Shown: positions 21,350 through 45,733 of the stretch, piece by piece
Layout of the letters: each line of letters begins with the position of its first letter
Position numbering within the stretch: the first letter of the stretch is position 1
NCBI RefSeq assembly: GCF_004361815.1
Contig: NZ_SNWA01000001.1
Span: 4,154,001 to 4,218,000, forward strand
Source of the DNA: Paraburkholderia sp. BL10I2N1
GTDB taxonomy: Bacteria; Pseudomonadota; Gammaproteobacteria; Burkholderiales; Burkholderiaceae
DNA length: 64,000 nucleotides
Reading direction: 5' to 3'
Program-made: the position numbers and the translations under genes
Notes under the pieces: generated by a model
The model's input: only the letters and a program-made list of their open reading frames with translations
The model's database searches: none
What the model was told of the DNA's origin: nothing

Positions 21350-21358
21350 AGAGATGCA

Positions 21359-22840: not shown

Positions 22841-22873
22841 ACCCAGATGCAAGTCACACAACGCGAGAGACTC

Positions 22874-24025: not shown

Positions 24026-24111
24026 TACGACATCCCGGAAATGGGCTTAATAATCTCCGGCTGCGCATAAGGCGCGAGGAGCGCGACACTCGACATCGGG
24101 GCGCCAGGCGG

Positions 24112-25266
24112 TCAGAAAGCCTCGATCGCTTCGTGATAGACGCCGGCAACCTGCGCCGCCACGACCGGACGGTCGAAATGTGCACGCGCATAGGCGCGGC
24201 ACGCCGCCGCGTCGGGTAAGGTGCGGGTACCACGCAGCGCCTCGATGATCCCGCTGCCGATCGCATGAAAACCCCCGGACGACAGTACCAGATCAGGCGA
24301 GAGCGGCGCTACGGCCTCCGGCAGGCCCCCTACCGGCGTCACCAGCACTGGCGTACCCGAGGCCAGCGATTCGATCGTGGTCAAACCGAAACCCTCGAGC
24401 GCGACGGTTGGCACCACCGTCATGTCGGCCGCCGCATACCACATCGGCAACGCCGAGTCGGGCACGAAACCCAGAAACTTCACGTGATCTTCGAGGCCAC
24501 GCGCCGCCACGCGCGCACGCAGGTTCGCCTCGAGCGGTCCGCGCCCCGCGATCGCCAGCAGCGCATCCGGTACCGCCTGCCTGATCAGATACATCGCGTC
24601 GATCAGATCCTCGATGCCCATGCGCCAGACGAGACGACGCACGCAAAAGAGGACCGGCCGGTCCTGCGGCAAGCCTAACGAGGCGCGCGCGTCCCGCTTC
24701 GCGAGGCCCGTATCGAAACGTGCGACGTCGACACAGCCCGGCACCACGCGAATGCTGTCTTCATGTATGCGGTACTGGGTATGCAGGATCTGCCCGAATG
24801 CCTGCGACAGCACGATATGCCGGGTGCCGCCGCGATAGACGAAGCGTTCGAGCGAGCGGCGCACGCCGCGCGCGAATGCCTTGCCACCGGCCTGGATCGA
24901 CTCGTCGGCCCACGGCCCGTGAAAGTGCACCACACGCGGCACACCGCTGAATACACCTGTAGTCGGTGCGGTATAGAGCGCGAAATGCGCGGCCACGACA
25001 TCCGGTTTGCGTGCGCGTTTGAGTCTTGACGAGAGCGCCCGGGCGGCCCACAGGCGCCGCCCGAGCCGCGAATCGGCCGTGGCGAACGACTGCACCGTCC
25101 CGCCCGAAGCCTTCTCGACCCCATCGCTGCCCGCCACCAGGCCGCGCACGTTGACCCCCTGCGCAGGCAACGACTCGACGAGTTCCATGAACATGCGATC
25201 GAGGCCGCCCGGTCGCTCTCCGAACCAGTGCATGCCGATCTGCAGCGAATCGATCTGAGTGCTCAT
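24112..25266 (-). CDS. GT4-family glycosyltransferase
   Basis: A 384-residue GT-B enzyme. The N-terminal acceptor domain contains GERPGGLDRMFMELVESL. The donor domain contains FCVRRLVWRMGIEDLIDA, IAGRGPLE and the E-x7-E motif EGFGLTTIE followed by SGTPVLVTPVGGLPE, all typical of GT4 mannosyl/glucosyl-type transferases. Its ATG overlaps the stop of the next upstream GT4 gene in an ATGA arrangement, so the two are translationally coupled within the minus-strand operon 28030-24112. Confidence 0.88.
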   Translation of the reverse strand: MSTQIDSLQIGMHWFGERPGGLDRMFMELVESLPAQGVNVRGLVAGSDGVEKASGGTVQSFATADSRLGRRLWAARALSSRLKRARKPDVVAAHFALYTAPTTGVFSGVPRVVHFHGPWADESIQAGGKAFARGVRRSLERFVYRGGTRHIVLSQAFGQILHTQYRIHEDSIRVVPGCVDVARFDTGLAKRDARASLGLPQDRPVLFCVRRLVWRMGIEDLIDAMYLIRQAVPDALLAIAGRGPLEANLRARVAARGLEDHVKFLGFVPDSALPMWYAAADMTVVPTVALEGFGLTTIESLASGTPVLVTPVGGLPEAVAPLSPDLVLSSGGFHAIGSGIIEALRGTRTLPDAAACRAYARAHFDRPVVAAQVAGVYHEAIEAF

Positions 25267-26441
25267 GAGTCCACCGTAGCCGGCGGAGACGGAACCGGGA
25301 CAGGCGCCACCGCGCGCCGCGCACAGATGCGCTCATACAGCGCCAGGTAGCGTTGCGCCATCGTGGACCACTCGAGCGTTCTGGCCAGCTCACGCGCGAC
25401 CTGCCCCATTTGCCTCGCGCTGTCGCGATCACTGACAAAACGCTCGATCGCCCCGGCGAGCGCAGGCGCATCTTCAGGATTGTCCAGCACCACGCCGCTG
25501 TCCGGTCCGATCACTTCGGCGCCGCCCGTCGTCCGCGCCGCCACCACCGGCAGCGCGCTGGCAAGCGCCTCCAGCAACACCAGGCTCATCGCTTCGTAAC
25601 GCGAAGGAAACACGAACGCGTCGACCGAACGCATCAGCGCGGGCATGTCTTTCACGAAGTCGATGAAATGTACCCGCTCGGCCACGCCGAGTTCCGCCGC
25701 CATTGCCGGATGCGGACTCCCCCGGAAACCAGCGGCGACGACAAGGTGCACTTCGCGCGAGGTCATCGCAAGTGCGCGCAGCACCGTGTCGAGATTCTTG
25801 CGCGACACGGTCAGATCGCCTGCGAACAGCAACAGGAAAGGTGCGTCGGGCAAGCCGAAGCGAGCGCGCCCGGAAACGCCTGGCGCGAATTCGTCGATAT
25901 CGACACCGTTGTAAATGACCTGCACCCGCGCCGGGTCGATACCATGCCTGAGCACTTCGCTACGCACCTTGTCCGACACCGGAACCACCACCTGCGCGCG
26001 CCTGAACGCCCCCGCCTCGAGGTAGCCGTTAACTCGCGTGAAGATAACCTGGTAGGCATCGTAAGCGCTGCGAAAAAAGCGAAACGGATAAAAGCCGCAT
26101 CGATACCACCCGTCGTGCACAAAATGGACGGCGTTGACATCGGCTCGCGCCCACGTAATGAAGCCGTTCACGTGCACCACGTCGAACTCGTGCCGATGCG
26201 CGCGGATCCACAGGCCGCTGCGCCACGCGAACGACTGGTACTGCAAAAGGCGCGTGGGCAGCCGGCTGGAGCTGATCTGCACAAACAGCGCGAGCGGGTG
26301 ATCCGCCAGTTCAGGTGCCGCGCGCGATGCGAGCATCGTCACCTGGTGGCCCGCCGCCAGCGCCGCGCGGGCAATCTCGTAGTTGACACGCCCCTGCCCA
26401 TCGTTCTTCGCGACGACGTGTGTCACGATCAGAATATTCAT
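25263..26441 (-). CDS. GT4-family glycosyltransferase
   Basis: A 392-residue GT-B enzyme beginning MNILIVTHVVAKNDGQGRVN, the glycine-bearing acceptor loop of GT4 enzymes. The donor domain has LFAGDLTVSRKNLDTVLRA and a motif near FVFPSRYEAMSLVLLEALA followed by LPVVAARTTGGAE. The ATG overlaps the upstream ligase stop (ATGA) and its own stop overlaps the next GT4 start, giving a three-gene coupled operon. Frames extending upstream into the ligase gene are rejected. Confidence 0.87.
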   Translation of the reverse strand: MNILIVTHVVAKNDGQGRVNYEIARAALAAGHQVTMLASRAAPELADHPLALFVQISSSRLPTRLLQYQSFAWRSGLWIRAHRHEFDVVHVNGFITWARADVNAVHFVHDGWYRCGFYPFRFFRSAYDAYQVIFTRVNGYLEAGAFRRAQVVVPVSDKVRSEVLRHGIDPARVQVIYNGVDIDEFAPGVSGRARFGLPDAPFLLLFAGDLTVSRKNLDTVLRALAMTSREVHLVVAAGFRGSPHPAMAAELGVAERVHFIDFVKDMPALMRSVDAFVFPSRYEAMSLVLLEALASALPVVAARTTGGAEVIGPDSGVVLDNPEDAPALAGAIERFVSDRDSARQMGQVARELARTLEWSTMAQRYLALYERICARRAVAPVPVPSPPATVDS

Positions 26442-28030
26442 ACGCTTACTCCTGGTGCCGGCCCTCGGCCAGCGCGTAGAACCGCCGCCGGCGCCACAGC
26501 GCGCCCAGCAGGTGCCGATGCAACCGATGCCGCCTTCGCGGCGGCTTTTGCCGCGTGTGCCTCGTGCGCACTGTAAAGGGCATAACGCAGCCCGATGACC
26601 GGCATCGTCACGCCAACGTAGAAAAGCATCCCCGTTCCGGATGTCATCGTATTGAACATGAGCAGCATCGCGAAAATCGCGACCGACACGCCCACGCCAC
26701 ATATCACGAAGCGGTCTTTCGGTTGTCGTCGGCTCGCCTTGAACGCCCGCCACATCAACAGAACGATCCCTGTCATAAACAGCAGCGTGCCGGGCCACCC
26801 CATCACGAATGGAATTTCCATCACGCCACTATCGAACCCGCCGCCAGCGGGCGCCGTACTGTCGGTCGCAAGCTTCGCGCCAAGGCCTATCGAACCGAGC
26901 CCCTCTCCTGAGATATCCGATAGCGCCGTCGTCAGAAAGATCTCGTAAAAGTAGGTCCGCTCCCGAAAGCTGCTGTCGTTGCTGATATCGGTAAGCGTAC
27001 TCATACGGCCGAGCACGCCATCCGATATCTGATCGAACATCATCAACGGCGCGCATAGCATCACGATACCCAGTACACCGCCGATCATCCGCCGCCGGCT
27101 CCTCCCGTCGAGCATCGCAAGTGGATAGACGAGGCCGATGACGAGGCCTCCCCAGCACGTGCGCACCGACGTGAACAGTAACGCCGCGACACCTGCAAGC
27201 GCCATCAGGATGGCGAGGCGCTTGCGCGAAGCCAGTGACATCAGCACCATATACATGATCGCCACGGCAAAGATACCGGGCGCATTCATCGTGCTCCAGA
27301 CACGCAGCCCGTATGGAACAGGGTGGCCGAAAGTCCAGCCTTTTATCTGGATGATCCAGAACGCGTCCCATGGCGGCACCACAACGAACTGAATGACGCC
27401 ATAGATGCCCATTAACAGACCGGCATACAACACCGTGCTCATCAGAACACGCTGGTAGTCAGGGTAGTGTCGCCATGTGACGTTGAGATAGAACGCCACC
27501 AGCGCCGGAAACGCCCAGTTGACCAGCGTATACAGCGCCGGCGCGAAGCCGGCCTGTATCACACCGACAACGAACGCATATAACATCGCGACGACGATCA
27601 GCACGAGCGGCGCGTTACGGCGCTGGCCAAGCCCGTTCGCGTGCTTGATGAACGAGAGGCCGCACAGCGAGACTGCCAGCAACGGCGCGACCATGATCGG
27701 ACTTTTGTCGTTGAACGCGCCGTTCACGAAATCCGCGAGGCGTCGCACCTCCGGTGAGAGGAAAAACAGCCAGCAGACGAAGCCCAGGTAGTGCGGAGGC
27801 GAGAACCGGTAGAACATCACAGCGATCACCAGGGCGCCAGCCGGATAAAACAGCTCGGCGATCTTTCCCTGGTGAACAGCGATCAGCAGCAACGTCAGGA
27901 TGAAGAAGCCGATCGGCAAGAGCGCCGGAAAGCGCGCGACCCACGACCCCTCGACGCGCACGCGTGGTTTGCCACGTTCCGCGTGCGACGCAGTCGCTAG
28001 CCGCGACGGCAATGACGGTGCTCTTGACAT
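26438..28030 (-). CDS. O-antigen ligase / polymerase-like membrane protein (WaaL/Wzy type)
   Basis: Polytopic membrane protein of 530 residues with about a dozen spans and the large periplasmic loop and late helices of the Wzy_C (O-antigen ligase) family. A motif around SFRERTYFYEIFL plus GEGLGSIGLGAK resembles the conserved RxxxW/H-type loop region. The ATG at 28030 follows GGGGGGCAAC and gives a sensible N-terminus; an upstream extension exists. Head of the operon with two GT4 genes. Ligase and polymerase cannot be separated by sequence alone. Confidence 0.75.
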   Translation of the reverse strand: MSRAPSLPSRLATASHAERGKPRVRVEGSWVARFPALLPIGFFILTLLLIAVHQGKIAELFYPAGALVIAVMFYRFSPPHYLGFVCWLFFLSPEVRRLADFVNGAFNDKSPIMVAPLLAVSLCGLSFIKHANGLGQRRNAPLVLIVVAMLYAFVVGVIQAGFAPALYTLVNWAFPALVAFYLNVTWRHYPDYQRVLMSTVLYAGLLMGIYGVIQFVVVPPWDAFWIIQIKGWTFGHPVPYGLRVWSTMNAPGIFAVAIMYMVLMSLASRKRLAILMALAGVAALLFTSVRTCWGGLVIGLVYPLAMLDGRSRRRMIGGVLGIVMLCAPLMMFDQISDGVLGRMSTLTDISNDSSFRERTYFYEIFLTTALSDISGEGLGSIGLGAKLATDSTAPAGGGFDSGVMEIPFVMGWPGTLLFMTGIVLLMWRAFKASRRQPKDRFVICGVGVSVAIFAMLLMFNTMTSGTGMLFYVGVTMPVIGLRYALYSAHEAHAAKAAAKAASVASAPAGRAVAPAAVLRAGRGPAPGVSV

Positions 28031-28144
28031 CCAGTTGCCCCCCGGCAATGAAAACCACGCGATGACGCCAGACGTGCGCGCCCGTTCGCGTTCAGGCCAG
28101 CCCGCACTGACGGCGGACCTGGCTGGCACTGCACGCGCGCGTGG

Positions 28145-28678
28145 TCACAGCAGTTCGTATGTTTTGACGATCGAAAGCCCGCTGCGCAGGCGGCGCACGT
28201 TTCCCGACTGAGCATGGCTGCCGCGCTGGCTGCACGAAAGACCGATGAAGGGCACGCCGTGCTCGAGAAAAGGACCTTCAGTCTTGCGAAAACCAAACTG
28301 CTCGTAAAAGCTCCTCAGTCCGACGGGTGCGGTCACCCGGATCAGGCGTCCCGGCCAACGCTCCGCAATGGCGCTCAATGCCCGCTCGATCAGCAATTCG
28401 GCCGTGCCATCGCCGCGTCTCGCGGGACTGGTCAGTATCTTGTCGATCACCACTTCCGGATCTTCCTCGTCTCCCGGACGAAGCCGCGCATAAGCCAGCA
28501 CCGGCATCGGCAGGCAGATGTCCTGCATCGCAAACAGATGCAGCGCGGTTTCGTCGTGGCCATCGGCGTCGAGACAAACGTGCGCCTGTTCGACGACGAA
28601 CACAGCACTTCGCGCCCGCATGATCAGATACAGTTCTCGCGGTGTGAGCTGTTCAAATTCGAGCGTTTTCCAGTTCAT
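28145..28678 (-). CDS. elaA: ElaA-type GNAT acetyltransferase
   Basis: A GNAT-fold N-acetyltransferase of 177 residues resembling E. coli ElaA, whose substrate is not known. The N-terminus MNWKTLEFEQLTPRELY and the core ARSAVFVVEQ with LDADGHDETALHLF match that family. The acetyl-CoA loop is the degenerate ARRGDGTAELL, and SFYEQFGFRKTEGPFLEHG is the usual GNAT C-terminal part. Starts at 28690 or 28732 are possible; I choose MNWK by similarity to ElaA. It is a single gene next to, but divergent from, the carrier-protein operon. Confidence 0.8.
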   Translation of the reverse strand: MNWKTLEFEQLTPRELYLIMRARSAVFVVEQAHVCLDADGHDETALHLFAMQDICLPMPVLAYARLRPGDEEDPEVVIDKILTSPARRGDGTAELLIERALSAIAERWPGRLIRVTAPVGLRSFYEQFGFRKTEGPFLEHGVPFIGLSCSQRGSHAQSGNVRRLRSGLSIVKTYELL

Positions 28679-28957
28679 CACAGAGTCCATTATCGAAATT
28701 CGACGGGAACATGGCTGTTCGCATGGAAACAAGGTACGCCGCCGAACCTCCAGATTCAGTGCGGCACCGCACTGACGATACCGGGTCGCGATCCGTTAAA
28801 TACCGACAACCAGCGACGTATGCGGCTGCTGCAGCGCGATCAGCCGGATACGTGACTGGTGAAGGACCACCGGCGACGCTGAAGCCGCCTCGTCAGGCAC
28901 GAGGCCAGGACTCAGAAAACACTGCACAGCTCTATCTCCTCAAGGGAGCGCCTCACT

Positions 28958-29209
28958 ATGAAAACAGCATTGCGACGCATTCTTTCCGAATCGGCCCGTC
29001 TCGATGTGCCGCCGGACACGCTGGCTGACGACGCCGACCTTTACGCGGCCGGCCTGTCGTCACTGGCGACCGTGCACCTGATGCTGGCGATCGAAGACGA
29101 ATTCGGCATCGAGATTCCCGACCGGATGCTGACGCGCCGCCTGTTCTCCAGCATCGATTCACTGTCCGCCGCGGTCAGCGAATTGCAGCAGGCAAAGGCG
29201 GCAGCATGA
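28958..29209 (+). CDS. Stand-alone acyl/amino-acyl carrier protein
   Basis: An 83-residue acidic helical protein with a carrier-protein fold: DDADLYAAGLSSL contains the probable phosphopantetheine attachment Ser35, and AIEDEFGIEIPD is the recognition helix. The usual GxDS motif reads GLSS here, so the Asp before the Ser is Ser. The start follows AAGGGAG. The ATG of the flavoprotein gene overlaps its stop (ATGA). With an amino acid:carrier-protein ligase two genes downstream, it is most likely the protein that receives an activated amino acid, not the fatty-acid ACP. Confidence 0.85.
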   Translation: MKTALRRILSESARLDVPPDTLADDADLYAAGLSSLATVHLMLAIEDEFGIEIPDRMLTRRLFSSIDSLSAAVSELQQAKAAA

Positions 29210-30471
29210 ACGCCCCGCTGATGCAGGAGGCCATCGCGCCAGTCGCCGAAGCGGCCACGCCCGCCGCCACCCTGGCCGCCGTGGAACCCGAATCCGGCTG
29301 GCGCGCCGCCGCGCAGCGCTGCGCCCAGATCGCCGCGCAACACGCCGATCCGGTCGACCGGCAGGCGCGCTTTCCAGTCGAAGCCTTCGACGCGCTGAAG
29401 CGCGAACGTCTGCTGTCGGCGATGGTGCCGGCGCGCTTCGGCGGCGCGGGACTCTCGCTCGCGGACGTCGCCTCGATATGCGAGATCCTCGCCCAGGGCT
29501 GCGCCTCGACCGCCATGGTGTACGCGATGCACCAGATCCAGGTCGCCTGCATCGAGGAGCACGGCAGCGACACGCCGTGGCACCAGAACCTGCTCACGCA
29601 GCTGGTCGAGCAGCAGTGGCTCCTCGCATCGGCTACGTCTGAAGAAACCATCGGCGGCAACATGCGCACCAGCGCCTGTGCAGTCGAACTCGACGGCGAG
29701 CTCTTTCGCATCGAAAAGCTCGCTCCGACGATTTCGTACGGCGCACACGCGGACGGCATCCTCGTCACCGCGCGGCGCACGGCCGAATCGGCGGCGGCGG
29801 ACCAGGTGCTGATCGTCGCGCTGCGCGATGAGACGGAGCTCGAAAAACGCGGCGGCTGGGACTCGATGGGCATGCGCGGCACCTGCAGCGAAGGCTTCCG
29901 CCTCGTCGCCACCGGGCTTGCCGAACAGATCCTGCCGACGCCTTTCGCCGATATCGCCGACCAGACCATGCTGCCCGTCTCGCATACGCTGTGGGCCGCT
30001 GTCTGGACCGGCGTGGCAGCCGATGCGGTGAACCGCGCGAAGGCCTTTTTCCGGGCTCAGGCGCGCTCGAAGCCGGGTTCGGTGCCTCCGGCAGGCATGC
30101 GTCTCGCTGAGGCTGTGGGCCTGCTGCAGATGATGCAGGCGCGCCTGTCGGTCGCACTCGATGCCGCGCGTGCCGCGCATCGGGCGAAACACGGCGCCTC
30201 GCAGGCCGACGCGCCACTCTCGGCGATGCTCGGCTTCGCGTCGGACATGAATACGCTGAAGACGAGCATCTCGTCGACGGCGCTGCTCGTCGTTCAGGAA
30301 GTGTTGATGATCTGCGGCATGGCCGGCTACAAGAACGGTACGGAATACAGCGTGGGCCGCCATCTGCGCGACCTGCACTCCGCGCCGCTGATGATCAACA
30401 ACGACCGTATTGCACAAAACACAGCGAGCCTGCTGCTGGCGCAGCGTCCGGCCGCCCCGGGGAGAGCCTGA
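29206..30471 (+). CDS. Acyl-CoA dehydrogenase-like flavoprotein of a carrier-protein operon
   Basis: A 421-residue flavoprotein with the acyl-CoA dehydrogenase fold: N-terminal helices (RERLLSAMVPARFGGAGLS), a middle beta domain and C-terminal helices. The region that normally holds a catalytic Glu and an EGTN-like tail reads LMINNDRIAQNTASLLL, with no obvious Glu. The enzyme may therefore act as a carrier-protein-specific oxidase, a monooxygenase or a divergent dehydrogenase instead of a beta-oxidation enzyme. Translationally coupled to the carrier protein by ATGA. Likely substrate is the aminoacyl thioester on that carrier; this is inference. Confidence 0.78.
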   Translation: MNAPLMQEAIAPVAEAATPAATLAAVEPESGWRAAAQRCAQIAAQHADPVDRQARFPVEAFDALKRERLLSAMVPARFGGAGLSLADVASICEILAQGCASTAMVYAMHQIQVACIEEHGSDTPWHQNLLTQLVEQQWLLASATSEETIGGNMRTSACAVELDGELFRIEKLAPTISYGAHADGILVTARRTAESAAADQVLIVALRDETELEKRGGWDSMGMRGTCSEGFRLVATGLAEQILPTPFADIADQTMLPVSHTLWAAVWTGVAADAVNRAKAFFRAQARSKPGSVPPAGMRLAEAVGLLQMMQARLSVALDAARAAHRAKHGASQADAPLSAMLGFASDMNTLKTSISSTALLVVQEVLMICGMAGYKNGTEYSVGRHLRDLHSAPLMINNDRIAQNTASLLLAQRPAAPGRA

Positions 30472-30472
30472 C

Positions 30473-31504
30473 ATGAACACGATGACCGACACGGCAGCGC
30501 TGGCGGCAGCGAATCCCGACGAGACACCGGCCGCGCCGACCTTTCGCGATGAACTGCTCGCAAAAGGCATCCTGATCGATACCGGTGAAAACGGTCTGTA
30601 TGGCCGCAGCCAGGTGTTCGAAGACGTCGTCGACCGCCTCAACGTTGCGATCACGCATCTCGGCGCGGACCAGCAGCCTGAAGTGCTGCGTTTCCCGCCC
30701 GCGATGCGCCGCACCGATTTCGAGGACAGCGAGTACCTGAAGAGCTTTCCGGATCTCGCCGGCACGATCCACTCTTTCTGCGGCAATGATGCCGGTCAGC
30801 AACGCCTGTTGCGCTGCCTCGACGATGCGATGGAGCGAAGCGACGACGACCGCGACACCGAATGGATGTCGCAGCAAAAACCGACCCGCGTCGTGCTGAC
30901 GCCGGCCGCGTGCTATCCGATCTATCCGGTAATGGCGAGGCGCGGGCCGATGCCTGCCAATGGCCGGACCATCGACGTGCTGTCGTACTGCTTCCGGCAC
31001 GAACCGTCGCTGGATCCGGCGCGCATGCAAATGTTCCGTCAACGCGAATACGTGCGCCTCGGCAACGCCGAACAGGTGATGGCGTTCCGCCAGATGTGGA
31101 TCGAACGCGGATCGCTGCTCGTCACGCTGCTGCAGCTGCCGGTCGATGTCGATCTCGCCAACGATCCGTTCTTCGGCCGCGGCGGCAAGATCATCGCCGA
31201 CAGCCAGCGCGCGCAGGCGCTCAAGTTCGAGCTGCTGATCCCGGTCGCCAATGCGCAAAGCAAGACCGCGTGCCTGTCGTTCAACTATCACATGGACCAC
31301 TTCGGCGCGATCTGGAAGATCGAATGCGAGGACGGGTCCGTCGCGCATACCGGCTGCGTGGGCTTCGGCATGGAGCGGATCACGCTTGCGCTGTTCCGTC
31401 ATCACGGGCTCGACGTGAACGCGTGGCCTGACGATGTACGCGCGCTGCTGTGGGGCGATACGAAGGCGCGTGTCGCTCACGGTCTGGCTGGAGGGGCCGT
31501 ATGA
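30473..31504 (+). CDS. Amino acid:[carrier protein] ligase (class II aaRS-like)
   Basis: A 343-residue relative of the catalytic core of atypical seryl-tRNA synthetases without a tRNA-binding arm. Such enzymes, characterised from Bradyrhizobium and Agrobacterium, adenylate glycine or alanine and transfer it to a carrier protein. Visible are motif 2 (CFRHEPSLDPARMQMFRQRE) and motif 3 (GFGMERITLALFRHHG). Cys147, Glu192 and Cys295 are spaced 45 and 148 residues, the spacing I recall for the zinc ligands Cys131/Glu176/Cys279 of the Bradyrhizobium enzyme. The start follows GGGGAGAG and the stop overlaps the next ATG. Its carrier is probably the protein at 28958. Confidence 0.88.
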   Translation: MNTMTDTAALAAANPDETPAAPTFRDELLAKGILIDTGENGLYGRSQVFEDVVDRLNVAITHLGADQQPEVLRFPPAMRRTDFEDSEYLKSFPDLAGTIHSFCGNDAGQQRLLRCLDDAMERSDDDRDTEWMSQQKPTRVVLTPAACYPIYPVMARRGPMPANGRTIDVLSYCFRHEPSLDPARMQMFRQREYVRLGNAEQVMAFRQMWIERGSLLVTLLQLPVDVDLANDPFFGRGGKIIADSQRAQALKFELLIPVANAQSKTACLSFNYHMDHFGAIWKIECEDGSVAHTGCVGFGMERITLALFRHHGLDVNAWPDDVRALLWGDTKARVAHGLAGGAV

Positions 31505-32571
31505 ACTCGCCGCTCACGACCGTCTGGAACAACCCGGCGGTGGCCGCGCCACCGCCTGCGCCGGCTTTCGCCGGGACCCTCGCGCCGGTGAGCCCGGTCA
31601 TCGTGCCCGCCCGCCCGGCGCGCGATCATGCGTCGCACGCACTGCATCAGGGTGACCGGGTCTGGCAGGAAACCAACTGCTATGTCGACCTCTGGATCGA
31701 ACTGCTGCACGGCTTCGGCCTCGATCCGCGCGCGGCGTTCGGCTTTACCGTGACGCAGGACTTCGAAGGCGATCAGTTCACCTTCTTCAAGTTTCCGCTC
31801 GAAGATATCGAGCGCCTGTACGGCACGCAGGTGCAGGAGCTTGCGATCTACGATTCGCTCGAAGACCGCGTGCTCGCGCAAACGCTGCGCGGCCATACGG
31901 TGCTCGTCGAAGTCGACGGCTACTATCTGCCGAACACGCGCGCCACCTCGTATCGCCGCGAACACCCGAAGACGACGGTGGGCATCGACTTCATCGATCC
32001 GTCCGCGCGGCGGCTCGGCTATTTCCACAATACCGGCTACCACACGCTGGACGGCGAAGACTACGACGGCGTGTTCCGCAAGCTGCCGCAGTTCGCGGGC
32101 AAGCCCGACCTGCTGTTCCCTTATGTCGAGTTCGCCAAGCAGGTACGCCCGGCCCTGGAAGGCACCGCCCTCGCCGAAGCGTCGGCGGACCTGCTGTGCG
32201 CGCATCTGGCGCGCCGGCCGCTGCGCAATCCCGTTACGGAATGGCGGACCGCGTTTCCGGCCCATCTGGACATGCTGCTCGAACGCGGCGAGCCGTTCTT
32301 CCATCCCTATTCGTTCAACCTGATGCGGCAGCTCGGCGCAAACTTCGAGTTTCTGTCGAAGTATCTGCTGTGGCTCAAGGCCCAGGGTTTCGCGATGCCC
32401 GATACGATTCCCGCGTCGGCGCAGACGATCGCATCGGAGGCGATGGTGATGCAGTTCCGCCTCGTGCGGGCCATGGCGCGCGGTCGCCGCGATACGTGCG
32501 ACGACTGCTTCGACGTGCTCGAAGCAGCCTATGAAGACACGTTGCCGCCGCTCGCCGCGCTTGCGCTGTGA
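31501..32571 (+). CDS. DUF1839-family protein
   Basis: A 356-residue soluble protein of the DUF1839 type, commonly seen beside amino acid:carrier-protein ligases and without an established function. The body begins at HQGDRVWQETNCYVDLWIEL. It includes conserved-looking TQDFEGDQFTFFKF, EVDGYYLPNT and TVGIDFIDP segments, giving many Asp/His/Tyr residues that could form an active site. About 45 Pro/Ala-rich residues precede the body. The ATG overlaps the ligase stop (ATGA). Its coupling suggests a step on, or release of, the aminoacyl carrier product. Confidence 0.8.
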   Translation: MNSPLTTVWNNPAVAAPPPAPAFAGTLAPVSPVIVPARPARDHASHALHQGDRVWQETNCYVDLWIELLHGFGLDPRAAFGFTVTQDFEGDQFTFFKFPLEDIERLYGTQVQELAIYDSLEDRVLAQTLRGHTVLVEVDGYYLPNTRATSYRREHPKTTVGIDFIDPSARRLGYFHNTGYHTLDGEDYDGVFRKLPQFAGKPDLLFPYVEFAKQVRPALEGTALAEASADLLCAHLARRPLRNPVTEWRTAFPAHLDMLLERGEPFFHPYSFNLMRQLGANFEFLSKYLLWLKAQGFAMPDTIPASAQTIASEAMVMQFRLVRAMARGRRDTCDDCFDVLEAAYEDTLPPLAALAL

Positions 32572-32595
32572 TGCGATGCATCGTCGGAATTCACC

Positions 32596-35127
32596 GTGCG
32601 AGCCTTGTTGAACGACCGCTCTGATCTTGCGCCGCACGGCGCCCGTGAGCAGTTCCCGACCGGCGGCACGCATGCGGACGGTGTCTGGCCGCGCCCCCTC
32701 GGGCACGGCTGGCAGTGCGTGACGACGAAGGCCGGCGCGTGCGCCTTGCCGTCCGCGTTACCCGCCGACGGCTGGCTGGTGGCTCCGGTGCCGGGCACGG
32801 TCGCGTCGGCGTGGCGCTCTGCGGGTAAGCTCGATTCCGAACGGCCGCCGCCCTTTGCGTTCGACGATCACTGGTACCGCCTGCCGCTTGCGGGCAACGG
32901 TACGCAGCGATTGCGTCTGCACGGTCTTGCTACGCTTGCCGAGGTCTGGCTCGACGACCAGAAGCTCCTCATGTCCGATTCGATGTTCGTCGCGCACGAC
33001 GTCGAATTTGAACTGAGTGGTGAAGCTACGCTCTCGCTGTGCTTCCGTTCGCTCGCGCCTCTGCTCGCCGCGCGTCGTTCGCGTGCGCGCTGGCGGCCGC
33101 GACTCGTCACGCCGCCGACACTGCGCAACGTCCGCACGACGCTGCTCGGTTACATGCCGGGCTGGTGTCCGCCGTTGCAGGCGGTCGGTCCGTGGCGCCC
33201 CGTGGAACTGCTAGGCAGCGCGCCCCACGCATTCGACACCGTCGACCTGCGCACCCATCTGGACGGCGACGACGGTATCGTTTCTGTAACGATCTGTTTT
33301 GTCCATCCGCACGCCGACACGACATCCGCGTCGTTAAATTGCGGGGACGTCCGTTCGTCTCTTCAGTGGACCGATGCGCACACGCTCAGCGGTTCGTTAC
33401 GTTTGCCCTACGCCGAGCGGTGGTGGCCGCACACGCATGGTGTGCCGAAACTGCACGCCGTAGCGCTGCAGCTTGGCGGCGAATCGTTCGCGCTCGGCGA
33501 CGTCGGCTTTCGTTCGATCGATGTCGCACGCGGCGCCGATGGCGATGGTTTTACCCTGCTTGTCAACGGCACGCCGGTGTTCTGCCGCGGCGCCTGCTGG
33601 ACGAGCGCCGATCTCGCGACGCTCGCCGGCACGCCGGAACAACTCGCACAGACCTTCTCGCTCGCACGCGATGCGGGGATGAACATGCTGCGTGTGGGCG
33701 GCACGATGGTGTACGAGTCGGACACGTTCTACCGGCTCGCCGACGCATACGGCATGCTCGTGTGGCAGGACTTCGCCTTCGCGAACTTCGACTATCCGAC
33801 CGACGACGACTTCGTCGCGAGCATCACCCGCGAAGCGACGCAGTTTCTCGCGCGCACACGGCGTTTCGCGTCGCTCGCGGTACTGTGCGGCGGCAGCGAA
33901 GTCGACCAGCAGGCGGCGATGTTCGGCCTGCCCACTTCGATGCGCGCGCAACCGCTCTTCACGGAGCGCCTGCCTGGCATCGTCGAGCGCGAACGTCCGG
34001 ACGTGCCCTATGTGAGCAATTCGCCGTCCGGCGGCGTCTGGCCGTTCTCGACGCGCACCGGCATCACACACTACTACGGCGTCGGTGCGTATCAACGACC
34101 GCTCGATGACGTGCGCCGCTCGCAGGTCCGTTTCGCCGCCGAATGTCTCGCGTTCGCGAACGTCCCCGACGACGCCACGCTGCACGACGCAACCGGCACG
34201 ATCCATCTGCACGATCCGCGCTGGAAGGCCGCCGTGCCGCGCGACCCAGGCGCCGGCTGGGACTTCGACGACGTGCGCGACCACTACCTGCATACACTCT
34301 ACGGAATCGAACCGGCGCGGTTGCGCTATGAAGATCCGCGGCGTTACCTGGATCTGTCGCGCGCGGTGATTGCCGAACTGATGACCGACGTGTTCGCTGA
34401 ATGGCGCCGCCACGGCTCGCCGTGCGGCGGCGGTCTCGTCTGGCAGCTTCAGGACCTGAAGGCCGGTGCGGGCTGGGGCCTCATCGACGCGCTGGGACGC
34501 CCTAAAAGCGCCTGGCACGCCCTTTCGCAGGTGCTGCAACCCATCCAGGTCGTCATCATCGACGAAGGGCTGAACGGCCTCGATCTGCATCTGATCAATG
34601 AGACAGCCGATACGTTATCGTTGCAGCTGGATCTCGTCTGCCTGCGCGATGGCACCGTCAACGTCGTGTCGGCCACCCGCGCCGTCGAATTGCTGCCGCA
34701 CAGCACGCAGTGCATCCCGGCGGCGGACTGCCTCGGGCAGTTCTTCGATTTCACCTGTGCGTACCGCTTCGGCCCGCGCGCACACGATGTAACGATTGCC
34801 ACGCTGCGCGATCCGGCAAGCGGAACGATCTGCTCGGAAGCGTTCCATCTGCCGCAGCGCCATGCGCTCGAACGGCATGACCTCGGCCTCACCGCCACGC
34901 CTGAAGCCATGCCGCACGGCTGGCAGCTCGTCATCGAGTCGCGCCGTTTCGCACGCTTCGTCCATATTGCGGATGCGCACTACCGCGCAGGCCGCGACTG
35001 GTTTCATCTGCCGCCCAACCGTCCGGTCAGGATCACGCTGCTGCCGCTCAACGCGGGCGAAACAACCGCAGCACCCGACGGCGAAGTGCGGGCGATCAAT
35101 TCAGCCGCCCCCGTCTTCTACCGCTGA
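32596..35127 (+). CDS. GH2-family glycosidase, beta-mannosidase-like
   Basis: An 843-residue protein with the GH2 layout: N-terminal jelly-roll (FDDHWYRLPLAG, AEVWLDD), immunoglobulin-like domain and TIM barrel. Barrel motifs include RVGGTMVYESDTFYRLADAYG and GMLVWQDFAFANFDYP, close to beta-mannosidases. The probable acid/base is E435 (CGGSEVDQQ) and the nucleophile E516 (FAAECLAF), so both catalytic carboxylates are present. There is no signal peptide. It starts with GTG 24 bp after the DUF1839 gene and is the last gene of the operon. A glycosidase with an aminoacyl-carrier system is unexpected; substrate unknown. Confidence 0.75.
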   Translation: MRALLNDRSDLAPHGAREQFPTGGTHADGVWPRPLGHGWQCVTTKAGACALPSALPADGWLVAPVPGTVASAWRSAGKLDSERPPPFAFDDHWYRLPLAGNGTQRLRLHGLATLAEVWLDDQKLLMSDSMFVAHDVEFELSGEATLSLCFRSLAPLLAARRSRARWRPRLVTPPTLRNVRTTLLGYMPGWCPPLQAVGPWRPVELLGSAPHAFDTVDLRTHLDGDDGIVSVTICFVHPHADTTSASLNCGDVRSSLQWTDAHTLSGSLRLPYAERWWPHTHGVPKLHAVALQLGGESFALGDVGFRSIDVARGADGDGFTLLVNGTPVFCRGACWTSADLATLAGTPEQLAQTFSLARDAGMNMLRVGGTMVYESDTFYRLADAYGMLVWQDFAFANFDYPTDDDFVASITREATQFLARTRRFASLAVLCGGSEVDQQAAMFGLPTSMRAQPLFTERLPGIVERERPDVPYVSNSPSGGVWPFSTRTGITHYYGVGAYQRPLDDVRRSQVRFAAECLAFANVPDDATLHDATGTIHLHDPRWKAAVPRDPGAGWDFDDVRDHYLHTLYGIEPARLRYEDPRRYLDLSRAVIAELMTDVFAEWRRHGSPCGGGLVWQLQDLKAGAGWGLIDALGRPKSAWHALSQVLQPIQVVIIDEGLNGLDLHLINETADTLSLQLDLVCLRDGTVNVVSATRAVELLPHSTQCIPAADCLGQFFDFTCAYRFGPRAHDVTIATLRDPASGTICSEAFHLPQRHALERHDLGLTATPEAMPHGWQLVIESRRFARFVHIADAHYRAGRDWFHLPPNRPVRITLLPLNAGETTAAPDGEVRAINSAAPVFYR

Positions 35128-35744
35128 TCGCCACGCAATCAAGCACCTCGCGGCGTCAGGATGCGCACCAACACTTGTGCCTTCACCGTTGGTGTCGTCC
35201 CGACACATTTGCCGCCTGGCATCGGTCCTCGTTCCCCAAAAAAGCGATCCGTGCGGTAGCACACGAAGACCATGAACCACTTCTGAATCAATTCCGGTAC
35301 AGCCACTGTTGGTTCGTCAGGGCTGTCGCGACGGGGCGTCTCATGCTCGATCCGCTGCCGCGCCAATCGTTTGCTGACGCCACGAACCCAATCCGATCAA
35401 GGACTTGGCGCAATCACAAATGTCGTCGCTGTTTCGCTTGCCCGTCCGGGACGATGTACAGAATTGAAACAAAAATGCACGTTTTGCCTCACGCCACAAG
35501 ATCGCGTCCATCGCTGCGCCGCACCAGCGTTCATTTTCGGTCCCGCTGGCATGCTCCTCGCTAAATGAGAGGCGCAACATCCAGCGCCGACGCAAACCAG
35601 CTCGATCAATGCGGAAAGCGCGAGGCTACACGGGGCCGGTACTGCGTACTCCTAGCCGCTCACCAGGCGACAGCTATCACGGGACACAGCACTGGGTTAA
35701 AAAAAAGAAGCCGCGTAACGCGCGGCTTCGCGCGAGGACCGATC
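35128..35744. other. 617-bp non-coding stretch upstream of the exopolysaccharide cluster
   Basis: No credible gene was found; short frames here have no family features. It should carry the promoter of the Crp-like gene. Its only clear structure is the hairpin with an A-run at 35699-35729, described separately, immediately before the ribosome-binding site of the next gene. Confidence 0.5.
35699..35729 (-). terminator. Rho-independent terminator facing the minus strand, directly upstream of the Crp-like gene
   Basis: A perfect nine-base stem, GAAGCCGCG at 35707-35715 and CGCGGCTTC at 35721-35729, with a five-base loop. Read on the minus strand it is followed by eight T residues (A-run 35699-35706), a textbook intrinsic terminator. 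No minus-strand gene lies upstream of it, so what it ends is unclear. On the plus strand it would be a leader hairpin ending just before the GAGGA ribosome-binding site. Confidence 0.7.
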
Positions 35745-36479
35745 ATGCTCACCCTTCAATCCGATCTGCACGGCAACCATTTGCTCGGCGCATTGCCGTC
35801 CCATGAGTGGCAGGCGCTGGCTCCCCATCTCGAACTCGTTCATCTGCGCACCGAGCAGTTGCTGTGCGACTCGGGACAGCGCATTCACCACGTCTACTTT
35901 CCGACCACCGCGATCATCTCCCTGCTCTATACGATGGAAGATGGCGGCTCGGTCGAGATCGCAGCAGTCGGCCGCGAAGGCATGACGGGCGTACCCGTCC
36001 TGACCGGCGGCGAAACGATGCCGAACCGCGTGCAGGTGCAATGCGCCGGCTTCGCTTACCGGATGACCGCGCAGGCGCTGAAGGCCCATTTCGCCCGCTC
36101 CGATTTCATGCGCCGCCTGATGCTGCTCTACATGCACGCCCTCCTCACTCAGGTCGCGCAGACGGCAGCCTGCAACCGCCATCATTCGCTCAACAAACAA
36201 TTGTGCCGGTGGCTCCTGATCGAGATCGACCGTGTCGCCACCGACGACCTCGCCGTCACGCAGCAGCTCATCGCGGACATGCTGGGCGTGCGTCGTGAAG
36301 GCATCACGGAAGCCGCGGGCAAGCTGCATAGCGACGGCCTGATCCATCACAGCCGCGGTCACATCCGTGTGCTGGACCGCAAGGGTCTCGAAGCGCGTGC
36401 GTGCGAGTGCTATGGCCTCGTGAAGCGTGAATTCGACCGGCTGCTGCCGCGCCTGCATCAAGCTGAAGCCGTCAGTTAG
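35745..36479 (+). CDS. Crp/Fnr-family transcriptional regulator
   Basis: A 244-residue regulator. An N-terminal cupin-type effector domain (residues about 10-120, with VYFPTTAIISLLY and VGREGMTGVPV) is followed by a dimer helix and a winged helix-turn-helix (TQQLIADMLGVRREGITEA). The effector pocket lacks the canonical cAMP-binding Arg-Ser/Thr motif and there are no clustered N-terminal Cys, so the ligand is not cAMP or an iron-sulfur cluster on this evidence. The ATG follows GAGGA. It lies ten bases before the initiating sugar transferase, so it probably regulates the exopolysaccharide operon and is co-transcribed with it. Confidence 0.85.
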   Translation: MLTLQSDLHGNHLLGALPSHEWQALAPHLELVHLRTEQLLCDSGQRIHHVYFPTTAIISLLYTMEDGGSVEIAAVGREGMTGVPVLTGGETMPNRVQVQCAGFAYRMTAQALKAHFARSDFMRRLMLLYMHALLTQVAQTAACNRHHSLNKQLCRWLLIEIDRVATDDLAVTQQLIADMLGVRREGITEAAGKLHSDGLIHHSRGHIRVLDRKGLEARACECYGLVKREFDRLLPRLHQAEAVS

Positions 36480-36488
36480 AGGACGGCC

Positions 36489-37880
36489 ATGTTCAGAAAC
36501 ACCGCGCGCTGCCTCGATGCGCTCTTCGTGATTGCGGGGGCACTGATCGCCCACCGGCTACGCTTCGCGACGGGGTACGAACTGGCTGACGACGAGCGGC
36601 TCCTGATCGCATTCAACTGCGTTCTGGTGCTGCTCCTGTTCCCCATGTTCGGCTTCTACGAGACCTGGCGCGGCAAGTCGCTGCCTGCGATGCTCGGGCG
36701 CGTCGTGCTGGCGTGGTTCGCCGTGGTCACGACGAGTCTCGTGCTGGTCTTCACGCTGCACCGGATGGACGCTGTGTCGCGCCTGTGGTTCGGCTACTCG
36801 ACGCTGATCTCCGGCGCACTGATCGTCGCCACGAAGTGCATCGCGCATCTGATGCTGCGCACGGCGCGGCGGCATGGCCTGAACTATCGTACCGTCGCCG
36901 TGGTCGGCACGCCTGGCTTCACGCGCACGCTGCTGTCCCATCTCGAACTCGCTCCGCACGCAGGGTTCAAACCGGTATGCGTTTTCGATACGACGCAGGC
37001 CGGCGAGGCCTCGCCCGATATCATCGCGCGCATGAGCAAGCTGCCCGTCCTCCGCGACATGGACGGGTTCGTGGCGAAGGTGCGCGAAGAACATATCAAC
37101 GAAGTGTGGCTGGCGCTGCCACTCTCGGAGGAACGCACGATCTATCGCTTCACGCGGGCGTTCCAGAACGACTTCATCAATCTGCGTTTCATTCCCGATA
37201 CGCGCAGCATGACGCTGTTCAGTCATTCGCTTGTCGAAGTGCTGGGCCTGCCCACCATCAATCTGTGCGGTGCCCCACACCCTTCGCCGCAGTTGTGGCC
37301 GAAGATAGTGTTTGATCGTCTCTTCGCGTTAGCGGTGCTCATCATACTTGCACCGCTTTTCGCCGTTATTGCGGTGGCGATCAAGACGACCTCGCCTGGC
37401 CCGGTGTTCTTCACACAGATGCGCAAGGGCATCGATGGCCGGCCGTTCGGAATTTACAAGTTCCGTTCGATGACGGTGCATCACGAGGAAGCGGGCAATC
37501 TCACGCAGGCGAGAAAAGGCGACGCACGGGTGACGAAATTGGGTGCGTTCCTGCGTCGCACGAGCCTCGATGAACTGCCGCAGTTCTACAACGTGCTGAT
37601 TGGACAGATGTCGGTCGTGGGTCCGCGCCCGCATGCGCTCGAACACGACGACCTTTACAAGGATCTGGTGTATGGCTACATGCATCGCTATCGCATCAAA
37701 CCGGGCATCACCGGCTGGGCACAGGTGAACGGCTATCGCGGTGCGACGGCGAAGATCGAGAAGATGGAAGCGCGGGTGAAGTTCGACCTGTTCTATATCC
37801 ACAACTGGTCGTTCTGGTTCGACGTGAAGATCGTGCTGATCACCCTGCTGAAGGGTTTCGTCGGACGCAACGCGTATTAA
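36489..37880 (+). CDS. Undecaprenyl-phosphate glucose phosphotransferase-like initiating enzyme (WcaJ/ExoY family)
   Basis: A 463-residue polyprenyl glycosylphosphotransferase that puts the first sugar-phosphate on undecaprenyl phosphate. Four N-terminal membrane segments and a nucleotide-binding-like central region (TVAVVGTPGFTRTLL) precede the catalytic C-terminal domain. That domain contains SPGPVFFTQMRKG, IYKFRSM, RRTSLDELPQFYNVL and KPGITGWAQVNGYRG, all hallmarks of the family. It opens a cluster with GT, Wza and Wzc genes, the standard arrangement for exopolysaccharide operons such as cepacian-type loci. Confidence 0.9.
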   Translation: MFRNTARCLDALFVIAGALIAHRLRFATGYELADDERLLIAFNCVLVLLLFPMFGFYETWRGKSLPAMLGRVVLAWFAVVTTSLVLVFTLHRMDAVSRLWFGYSTLISGALIVATKCIAHLMLRTARRHGLNYRTVAVVGTPGFTRTLLSHLELAPHAGFKPVCVFDTTQAGEASPDIIARMSKLPVLRDMDGFVAKVREEHINEVWLALPLSEERTIYRFTRAFQNDFINLRFIPDTRSMTLFSHSLVEVLGLPTINLCGAPHPSPQLWPKIVFDRLFALAVLIILAPLFAVIAVAIKTTSPGPVFFTQMRKGIDGRPFGIYKFRSMTVHHEEAGNLTQARKGDARVTKLGAFLRRTSLDELPQFYNVLIGQMSVVGPRPHALEHDDLYKDLVYGYMHRYRIKPGITGWAQVNGYRGATAKIEKMEARVKFDLFYIHNWSFWFDVKIVLITLLKGFVGRNAY

Positions 37881-37898
37881 AACCTGCGGGGGCGTGGG

Positions 37899-38855
37899 GT
37901 GAATACAGAGCTTGAAGCTGCACTGCGCGTATCAGTGATCGTGCCGACCTATCGCCGGCAGGTTGATCTCGCTCGCTGTCTGGCGGCGCTCGACGAACAG
38001 TTTCGGCCGGCCGACGAAGTGATCGTGGTCGCGCGTCCGGATGACCATGCAACCCAGGCCTTTCTGCAGCAACGCGCGCGAGGGCGTGGCACGCAGGGGC
38101 TGCAGGTCGCGCCAGTGACGCGACCCGGCGTGGTCGCGGCCTACAACCGCGGCCTCGATGCCGCAACGTGCGACATCATCTGCTTCACCGACGACGACGC
38201 CGCCCCTCATCCTGACTGGACACAGCGCCTCATCGAAACATTTCTGTCCGACCCCGGCATCGGCGGTGTCGGCGGACGCGACATCGTGCATCAGAACGGC
38301 ATGATCCTCGAAGGGGCGCGACGAAACGTGGGACTCGTTCGCTGGTACGGGCGCCCGGTCGGCAACCATCACATCGGCTGCGGCAAGGCGCGTCGGGTAC
38401 ATGTGCTCAAGGGCGTCAATATGGCGTTCCGCCGCGAGGCTGTCGAAGGACTGCGCTTTGACGAGCGGCTGCGCGGCAACGGCGCGCAGGTGCACTGTGA
38501 AATGGAGTACAGCCTCGATGTATTGAGGCGCAAGTGGGCACTGGTCTACGACCCGTCGATTCTCGTCGAGCACTATCCGGCGCCGCGCAGTGACGAAGAC
38601 CAGCGCTTCAGTTTCAACCATGTTGCGTTTTATAACGCTTCGTTCAACCTGCGGCTCATCATTTGCGAACACCTGTCGGGACCGGGCAGGTGGGCGTTTG
38701 TCGCGTATTCGACGTTGATCGGCAATCGCGCGGATCCGGGGCTTGCCCGCGCGATAACCCTGGCGTTCAGCGGCGTTGCACCAGAAATTGCATTGCGTAA
38801 ATGGTGGATCGGCTTGCGCGCGATGCGCGGAGCCTGGCAGGAAGCAAGGCGCTGA
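37899..38855 (+). CDS. GT2-family glycosyltransferase
   Basis: A 318-residue GT-A enzyme. It shows VSVIVPTYRRQVDLARCL at the start, the aspartates of AAYNRGLDAATCDIICFTDDD (DxD-like) and a GANFAFR-like segment here written KGVNMAFRREAVEGLRFDE. It probably adds a sugar to the lipid-linked repeat unit. The GTG start follows a GGGGGCGTGGG stretch. It lies between the initiating transferase and Wza. Confidence 0.85.
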   Translation: MNTELEAALRVSVIVPTYRRQVDLARCLAALDEQFRPADEVIVVARPDDHATQAFLQQRARGRGTQGLQVAPVTRPGVVAAYNRGLDAATCDIICFTDDDAAPHPDWTQRLIETFLSDPGIGGVGGRDIVHQNGMILEGARRNVGLVRWYGRPVGNHHIGCGKARRVHVLKGVNMAFRREAVEGLRFDERLRGNGAQVHCEMEYSLDVLRRKWALVYDPSILVEHYPAPRSDEDQRFSFNHVAFYNASFNLRLIICEHLSGPGRWAFVAYSTLIGNRADPGLARAITLAFSGVAPEIALRKWWIGLRAMRGAWQEARR

Positions 38856-38895
38856 CAGCATCACAGCGCTTCGTGTAACGCGAGGGACCATAACC

Positions 38896-40167
38896 ATGAT
38901 GTTTAAAACGATTTGTACGGGGCTCGTAGCGATCTCCTTATGCGCCTGCTCGCTCTCGCCTGGCGGCTTTCTCGACAAGAGCCGCCTGACCGAGAAGCCG
39001 CCGGCGCAGCCTGCCGCGGCACCGGCGACCTTCGAGGTCCAGCCCATCGACGTGGCCTACTTCCAGGCAAACCCGCCTGAAGTCGCGCCACCGGCGCCGT
39101 GTCCGCTCACCTGCCTGACGCCGCAGTCCCGCGCGTCACATGCTTACAGGATCGGGGTCAACGACCAGTTGCAGGTGATCGTCTGGGATCATCCCGAGCT
39201 GACTTCCCAAGGCGGCGGAGGGAGCACAGGCACTGCCGGCGTTCCGCCGCTGCCTTCCGGCGGGACGGGTGGCGGCGGGACGGGTGGCGGCGCAACCGCA
39301 GGGGGCGCGACATCGTCTGGTGGCGTAGAGCCTGGCGGATTGACACTGCGCGTAGCTTCGGACGGCACGGTGTTTTTCCCGCGAGTCGGCCGTATCAAGG
39401 TCGCTGGCAAGTCCCCTCAGGAAGTCCAGCGTCTCCTGACAGACGGCCTGCGCAAAACGATTGTCAATCCCCAGCTCGACGTTCGCGTGACCGGCTTCAA
39501 CAGCCAGCAGGCACAGATCCTCGGCGACGTGAAGCTCCCGCAGGCGCAGGCCCTCACCGATGTGCCGCTGTCGATCATCGACGCGATCAACCGGGCGGGC
39601 GGCGCGAACAGTGATGCCGACCTGCAGAATGTCGGTGTCACGCGCGGTGGCAAGCGTTATCAGGTCGACGTCGCGTCAGTCCTCGAAACGGGCAATGTCC
39701 AGCAGAATGTCGTGCTCGAGGACGGTGACATCGTCGACGTGCCTGACCGGACGAACAGCCGCGTGTTCGTGCTGGGTGAGATCAGCAAGCCCGCGGCCGT
39801 GCCGATGAACCGCGGCAAACTGACGCTCGCCGATGCCATTGCCAATTCCGGCAGCGTCGATAACAAGACGTCCGACCCGCATTTCATTTATGTGATCCGC
39901 GGTATCCAGCCGCCATCCCCCGGCCCCGGCTCCAGCCCGAAAGCGGTACCGGTCGGCGCAAAGATGACGACCTCAGTCGTCCAGCCGGACGTGTTCCGTC
40001 TCGACATGACGCAGGTCGACGCGTTGGTGCTCATGACCCGGTTCGATCTTCAGCCGCTCGATATCGTGTATGTCCAGATTGCGGATTCCGCGCGCTTTAA
40101 CCGGTTGCTCGACCTGATCACGCCATCGCTGCAGACGCTCTTCTTCACCAAACAACTGGCGCAATAA
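38896..40167 (+). CDS. Wza-type outer-membrane polysaccharide export lipoprotein
   Basis: A 423-residue lipoprotein (lipobox L-C-A-C18 after a hydrophobic signal) that forms the outer-membrane exit channel. The polysaccharide export domain begins at YRIGVNDQLQVIVWDHPEL and resumes at RVASDGTVFFPRVGRIKV, followed by two SLBB-type repeats (AQILGDVKLPQ and VFVLGEISKPA). Odd feature: a Gly/Ser/Thr-rich low-complexity insert at about residues 104-152 inside the export domain, partly built from a 15-bp tandem repeat. The ATG at 38896 gives the signal peptide; an upstream extension overlapping the GT2 gene is rejected. Confidence 0.88.
   Translation: MMFKTICTGLVAISLCACSLSPGGFLDKSRLTEKPPAQPAAAPATFEVQPIDVAYFQANPPEVAPPAPCPLTCLTPQSRASHAYRIGVNDQLQVIVWDHPELTSQGGGGSTGTAGVPPLPSGGTGGGGTGGGATAGGATSSGGVEPGGLTLRVASDGTVFFPRVGRIKVAGKSPQEVQRLLTDGLRKTIVNPQLDVRVTGFNSQQAQILGDVKLPQAQALTDVPLSIIDAINRAGGANSDADLQNVGVTRGGKRYQVDVASVLETGNVQQNVVLEDGDIVDVPDRTNSRVFVLGEISKPAAVPMNRGKLTLADAIANSGSVDNKTSDPHFIYVIRGIQPPSPGPGSSPKAVPVGAKMTTSVVQPDVFRLDMTQVDALVLMTRFDLQPLDIVYVQIADSARFNRLLDLITPSLQTLFFTKQLAQ
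39261..39290 (+). repeat. 15-bp tandem repeat inside the wza-like gene
   Basis: The unit CGGGACGGGTGGCGG occurs twice in a row and encodes part of the Gly-Thr-rich insert of the export lipoprotein. The length is a multiple of three, so copy-number change would keep the frame. Confidence 0.75.
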
Positions 40168-40192
40168 CCTACGGCTAGCGAGAGAAAATAAA

Positions 40193-45727: not shown

Positions 45728-45733
45728 TCCGCG

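Follow-up and report, generated by a model that had tools for sequence, protein, structure and literature searches.

A 64,000-nucleotide (nt) stretch of the genome of Paraburkholderia sp. BL10I2N1 (contig NZ_SNWA01000001.1, positions 4,154,001 to 4,218,000; hereafter the window) carries a five-gene cassette encoding a stand-alone carrier protein (CP), a flavoprotein, an amino acid:[carrier protein] ligase related to aminoacyl-tRNA synthetases (aaRS), a DUF1839 protein and a glycoside hydrolase family 2 (GH2) enzyme. The genes lie as follows (aa, amino acids).

28958-29209, + strand: CP, 83 aa, stand-alone; PF00550 at 43.7 bits, NF005480 at 125.2 bits (cut-off 72)
29206-30471, + strand: flavoprotein, 421 aa, acyl-CoA-dehydrogenase fold, PF02771; presumed substrate, the carrier-bound amino acid
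30473-31504, + strand: amino acid:[carrier protein] ligase, 343 aa, class-II aaRS-derived; NF005479 at 528.9 bits (cut-off 357)
31501 (ATG)-32571, + strand: DUF1839 protein, papain-like, CcbD-like fold; PF08893 at 441.7 bits (cut-off 22.5)
32596 (GTG, start uncertain)-35127, + strand: GH2 enzyme, 843 aa; PF22666 GH2 N-domain

Open reading frames and protein families bear out a first-pass annotation of this DNA, which had described five head-to-tail genes with three tight junctions. Two of these are ATGA overlaps, at 29206-29209 between the CP and flavoprotein genes and at 31501-31504 between the ligase and DUF1839 genes, and the third is a 1-nt gap between flavoprotein and ligase; DUF1839 and GH2 are separated by 24 nt. 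In 34 of the 37 cassettes that were complete in the first locus sets, the CP and flavoprotein genes overlap by 4 or 1 nt, or lie flush (starts picked by script), suggesting that the two genes are generally tightly coupled. No sigma-70 promoter turned up in a scan, and the source genome holds one copy of DUF1839.

A sample of 398 genomes from the phylum contains DUF1839 in 16 and the ligase, above cut-off, in 28, including all 16 of the former. Each of these 16 genomes (the window counted) carries the five genes in identical order, and because this order is kept across families it reflects more than chance, ruling out fortuitous clustering. Many bacteria of soil and plants share this arrangement. 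The other 12 genomes pair the ligase with a flavoprotein and show no DUF1839 or GH2 match within the 15-20 kb taken. Likewise, no DUF1839, flavoprotein or GH2 gene was found near eight weaker ligase places taken from 17 such places in 16 further genomes. The first-pass annotation had proposed a comparison of gene neighbourhoods and had regarded a GH2 enzyme in this set as unexpected. Far from being rarely linked, as would have counted against that annotation, the GH2 gene accompanies DUF1839 in every one of the 16 phylum-sample genomes; PMC2922099 had already reported a glycosidase there in 2010.

Within the genus sample, DUF1839 occurs in 56 of 97 genomes, at 62 places, of which 24 were taken: 22 are complete and two are remnants, each in a genome with a second complete cassette. 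Complete cassettes are also present at 68 of 80 named loci (66 of them simple, the other two carrying a further DUF1839), these being the best 80 of 537 confirmed matches and leaning to Paraburkholderia; two of the 12 others (L122, L131) lie at contig ends. All seven loci taken from a plasmid collection (59 records matched) are complete. Nine DUF1839 cores are duplicated between locus sets, eight of them in full cassettes, such that 105 cassettes represent ~97 distinct ones; the copy counts of 114 (GH2) and 126 (ligase, flavoprotein) used below include such duplicates. A number of loci are remnants (L033, L034/L119, L099, L111, L116, L117, L127, L128), where DUF1839, often with the CP, is retained, the flavoprotein and ligase are gone or reduced, and GH2 is lost or survives only as a piece.

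Family membership and conserved metal-site residues support the earlier proposal that an amino acid is loaded by the ligase as a thioester on the CP. The likely phosphopantetheine-bearing residue of the CP, Ser35 (codon 29060-29062, context GLSSL), is retained in at least 97% of 40 alignment rows. Ligase residues 15-329, the catalytic core only, align with 3mey/4h2w (bll0957), and C147, E177 and C295, which we take to be the three metal ligands, are found in 125 of 126 copies, the remaining copy being an incomplete sequence. Adenylation and carrier loading by relatives of the ligase are in print, and a table in the accessible part of PMC9437257 gives Ala, Gly and Ser. The first-pass annotation had pointed to Bradyrhizobium and Agrobacterium homologues for this chemistry. 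The bll0957-like ligases, which are near those with demonstrated chemistry, have other neighbours, with neither DUF1839 nor GH2 among them. In a ligase tree, a branch supported at 100/97 has all 37 DUF1839-linked rows to one side of it.

At L054, a 291-aa protein encoded 3′ of a bll0957-like ligase matches nothing in Pfam or NCBIfam; perhaps it catalyses the last step in a DUF1839-free cassette. By eye it had given the impression of a GNAT protein, and with no match in either database we claim no replacement transferase. Distant ligase homologues of ~320-440 aa from other families (L066-L073) have no DUF1839, GH2 or flavoprotein match nearby.

The flavoprotein, earlier called dehydrogenase-like, indeed has the acyl-CoA dehydrogenase fold, but an alignment read by eye places no Glu at the usual base position, presumably that of MCAD E376, and the base may lie elsewhere. 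The motif at that place is MI.NDR in 124 of 126 copies and MINNHR in one, with one copy incomplete. Four of the top six rows of a profile search are DnmZ, 3m9v (KijD3), 4kcf and 3mxl (nitrososynthase), and the first and third rows are dehydrogenases. Both this search and the fold search tie between dehydrogenase and oxygenase. Oxidation of the loaded aminoacyl group, as the first-pass annotation had it, is plausible, and may be of either kind. A flavin reductase gene lies ~34 kb upstream of the cassette, and the source genome has seven flavin reductases.

DUF1839 is a candidate aminoacyl-CP:amine transferase, as suggested by its modelled fold, a conserved cysteine and its gene company. In rankings of the predicted model (pLDDT 86.2) by Foldseek and VIA, CcbD, AziU2/U3 and CtaG come out far above papain-like hydrolases, and the CcbD-like fold spans the whole domain. 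CcbD-like condensation enzymes have a Cys-His-Glu catalytic set. Cys60 (codon 31678-31680; model residue 61) lies where the first long helix begins and is kept in 101 of the 105 full cassettes. H155 and H176 (model residues 156 and 177) are invariant across 21 rows, and either could be the partner of Cys60. In Cupriavidus-type cassettes (L015, L014/L023 from one genome, L151, L152 and L157) the Cys is replaced by Q or R and the KTT motif is lost; the same genomes also carry a second, lone DUF1839 with an intact Cys.

Papain-like folds include hydrolases, and DUF1839 might instead be an ester former, a thioesterase or an editing hydrolase that frees the modified amino acid, with GH2 acting on an unrelated substrate. 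PMC10318531, in the portion available, lists DUF1839 as papain-like with a proposed C(T/S)H site and only guessed at glycan processing. We nevertheless judge any of these roles quite unlikely, given the fold ranking and the fact that GH2 adjoins DUF1839 in 16 of 16 phylum-sample genomes but accompanies none of the 12 DUF1839-free ligases. Non-ribosomal peptide formation was first suggested for these ligases in a 2010 PNAS title quoted in the consulted part of PMC2922099. It would account for the presence of a carrier protein and ligase, and CtaG is termed a peptidyl transferase in an excerpt of PMC6772006. However, the cassette encodes a single carrier and no condensation or further loading module, and sugar enzymes recur instead, making peptide formation very improbable.

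Alignment of the GH2 enzyme to a solved beta-mannosidase places its acid/base at E435 (codon 33898-33900) and its nucleophile at E516 (codon 34141-34143). Both are invariant in 16 rows and present in 112 of 114 copies, the exceptions (L099, L127) being damaged loci. No signal peptide was found on inspection by eye, and the enzyme is apparently cytosolic. The earlier label of beta-mannosidase-like holds in that the nearest solved structures by sequence are GH2 beta-mannosidases, but it fails at the pocket: the NE motif and the Trp near C2/C3, which the available sections of PMC12243196 give as marks of beta-mannosidases (GH2_13), are absent. The acid/base is preceded by Ser (SE) in 111 of 114 copies and by Asn (NE) in one, and every one of the 114 has G, S, P, A or N at the Trp/His place, with G in 86 (S434-E435 and G368 in the window).

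According to the same sections of PMC12243196, SE and Gly are marks of GH2_14, whose pocket may accept substituted substrates, and Ser suits C2 amination in GH2_16. Both studied GH2_14 members are described there as slow on pNP-beta-galactoside and inactive on mannobiose and mannotriose, with the Burkholderia member also weak on lacto-N-tetraose and beta-1,6-galactobiose. The cassette enzyme resembles GH2_14 in having SE for NE, Gly for His/Trp and no signal peptide, and one studied member comes from Burkholderia. We therefore describe it as GH2_14-like, a placement made by published marks. These pocket marks would fit a C2-modified, perhaps N-acylated, sugar, and slow activity on test substrates combined with a pocket for substituted ones is what might be expected of an enzyme meant for such an unusual sugar.

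Our preferred reading, which we hold to be about as likely as not, is that the cassette uses a carrier protein to attach an amino acid to a sugar, most likely an amino sugar. By analogy with its relatives, the ligase would adenylate a small amino acid and load it onto the carrier phosphopantetheine, where the flavoprotein would oxidise the bound aminoacyl group. Cys60 of DUF1839 might then accept the acyl group and pass it to an amine, most likely a sugar amino group, in the way that CcbD works in celesticetin biosynthesis, as fold, conserved Cys and gene company suggest. Finally, GH2 would act on the substituted sugar and, in the weakest step of the scheme, may release or proof-read the aminoacylated glycoside, trimming and recycling being other candidate roles. 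The first-pass annotation had imagined the amino acid joined to or released from a sugar-containing product; joining is the part that gains support, because of the CcbD fold of DUF1839 and the exopolysaccharide setting in Burkholderiaceae (see below).

Similar logic is found in known systems. Dlt and AlmEFG put a carrier-loaded amino acid on a surface glycan, as proposed here, but use another ligase and membrane acyltransferases in place of DUF1839, with no flavoprotein or GH2. The butirosin side chain (BtrI, BtrJ, BtrO, BtrH) also involves a carrier, a ligase, a flavin enzyme and a papain-like acyltransferase acting on a sugar amine, the acceptor being an aminoglycoside. Its BtrI, BtrJ and BtrO roles include an ATP-grasp ligase and a luciferase-like oxygenase, unlike this cassette. 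The papain-like nature of the BtrH acyltransferase is given in the portion of PMC10318531 noted above. The condensation enzymes CcbD and LmbD, of celesticetin and lincomycin, belong to actinomycete antibiotic pathways, and no sequence match between them and DUF1839 was found; loading there is by the stand-alone adenylation domain LmbC/CcbC (PMC4351081, in part), whereas an aaRS relative serves here.

In the window, Pfam matches place the cassette inside a Wzx/Wzy-type exopolysaccharide locus, with the following surroundings.

20162-28129, no strand assigned: upstream exopolysaccharide-type genes (GT9, Wzx, Acyl_transf_3, two GT4, a Wzy_C match below cut-off)
35565-36479, + strand: Crp/Fnr-like regulator, PF13545; downstream setting, cassette membership not claimed
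36489-46984, no strand assigned: downstream exopolysaccharide-type genes (WcaJ-type initiating transferase, GT2, Wza, Wzc, three GT4)

A GNAT-family gene (28145-28732, - strand) is divergent from the cassette, and its protein cluster (C8) is present at 13 loci, all from the same family. Within Burkholderiaceae, the genes around the cassette make an exopolysaccharide, and a precursor of this polymer is the probable acceptor.

A sixth partner is a tandem alpha/beta-hydrolase. At two Azospirillum loci and one Mycetohabitans locus its gene lies 3′ of GH2 with a 4-nt overlap, and at three Rhizobiaceae-type loci (L155 being from Rhizobium) the same protein also contains a Wzx-like flippase domain (PF13440).

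L016, 14391-17696: flippase-hydrolase fusion
L018, 2460-5768: flippase-hydrolase fusion
L155, 16865-20176: flippase-hydrolase fusion

In the genus sample the hydrolase is present in 56 of 56 DUF1839 genomes versus 5 of 41 others (Fisher 1.5e-21, uncorrected for shared ancestry), and lies within 60 kb on the same contig at 47 of 62 DUF1839 places. The Paraburkholderia hydrolase occupies the same exopolysaccharide region, so this correlation may belong to the locus. The source genome has three such hydrolases; the match to the nearest ends 45 bases before window position 1, ~30 kb from the cassette. The hydrolase resembles hydrolases 1 and 2 of exosortase-A systems, below cut-off. Directly upstream of the Rhizobium cassette (L155, 6549-9375) are efp, epmA and a lysine-2,3-aminomutase-like gene, and a cluster that is aminomutase-like by eye (C39) recurs in L016, L018, L020 and L022.

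A fuller, more speculative reading is a distinct glycan aminoacylation route in which the aaRS-derived ligase charges the carrier, the flavoenzyme alters the bound amino acid, possibly at nitrogen, an amide synthase of the CcbD type caps an amino sugar within a lipid-linked repeat unit, the GH2_14-like glycosidase cleaves or proof-reads the sugar so capped, and the hydrolase-flippase partner passes the unit outward. We put this forward tentatively and regard it as rather doubtful in its entirety. The leading rival account, which we think unlikely, is that the product is a small, diffusible amino acid-amino-sugar glycoside, lincosamide-like, and that the polysaccharide setting in Burkholderiaceae merely provides a landing site. 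In its favour, DUF1839 has its close fold relatives in antibiotic pathways, and an ABC-transporter ATPase recurs, by eye, near L016, L019, L027 and L061. The flippase-hydrolase fusion and the exopolysaccharide markers near most Burkholderiaceae loci speak against it.

Several observations weigh against a sugar-decorating pathway tied to surface polysaccharide, some of them favouring a diffusible product. Exopolysaccharide markers, which are Paraburkholderia proteins that may miss distant homologues (a Wzz-type gene, for one, lies near L017) and were scored as raw counts, are near 5 of 16 phylum-sample loci, all of the window's family, and near none of the 11 from other families. Among the plasmid loci they are near two of seven, both Burkholderiaceae. 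Because the markers are found in Burkholderiaceae only, we rejected exopolysaccharide genes as a defining part of the cassette. The Azospirillum and Mycetohabitans cassettes, with their alpha/beta-hydrolase, show no exopolysaccharide cluster in the stretch annotated. Ligase-only loci have markers at none of 12, yet at three of these (L060-L062) a neighbouring gene encodes a protein in the same cluster as the L017 Wzz-type protein, and the setting thus separates the two kinds of locus imperfectly. Several loci (for example L033, L034, L099 and L117) retain DUF1839, some with the CP, in the absence of flavoprotein and ligase. At the level of sequence, searching the PDB with DUF1839 profile A1 returned a single row, at chance level, and no CcbD, CtaG or AziU2/U3; Cys60 is only a putative counterpart of CcbD Cys19.

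The association and the outline of its function have been known since 2010. A note added in proof to PMC2922099, as far as its text was available, places the ligase alongside an ACP, a redox enzyme, a glycosidase, liposaccharide genes and the conserved uncharacterised ORF Atu2574, whose product it predicts to form an amide joining an amino acid to a cell-surface amino sugar. Our analysis concerns the same gene company and predicted function and adds evidence on fold, active site, GH2 subfamily and partner hydrolase, and the candidate attaching enzyme is now named by fold. Our literature searches found no product for amino acid:[carrier protein] ligases, whose chemistry dates from 2010, no paper joining at least three of ligase, exopolysaccharide, GH2 and dehydrogenase, and nothing tying DUF1839 to CcbD.

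If DUF1839 is viewed as a candidate amide synthase with the CcbD fold and GH2 as a GH2_14-like enzyme, the cassette points to an acceptor class, amino sugars, and to a place to look, the exopolysaccharide of common laboratory strains of Paraburkholderia. If the sugar-decorating pathway is correct, it would assign a function to DUF1839, a domain family of no fewer than 4,948 protein clusters, and to a GH2 subfamily whose characterised members act slowly on test substrates. The distinct aminoacylation route, if true, would mean that Paraburkholderia, Cupriavidus and Rhizobium bear an unseen oxidised-aminoacyl substituent on their surface glycans, and would supply the natural substrate of GH2_14.

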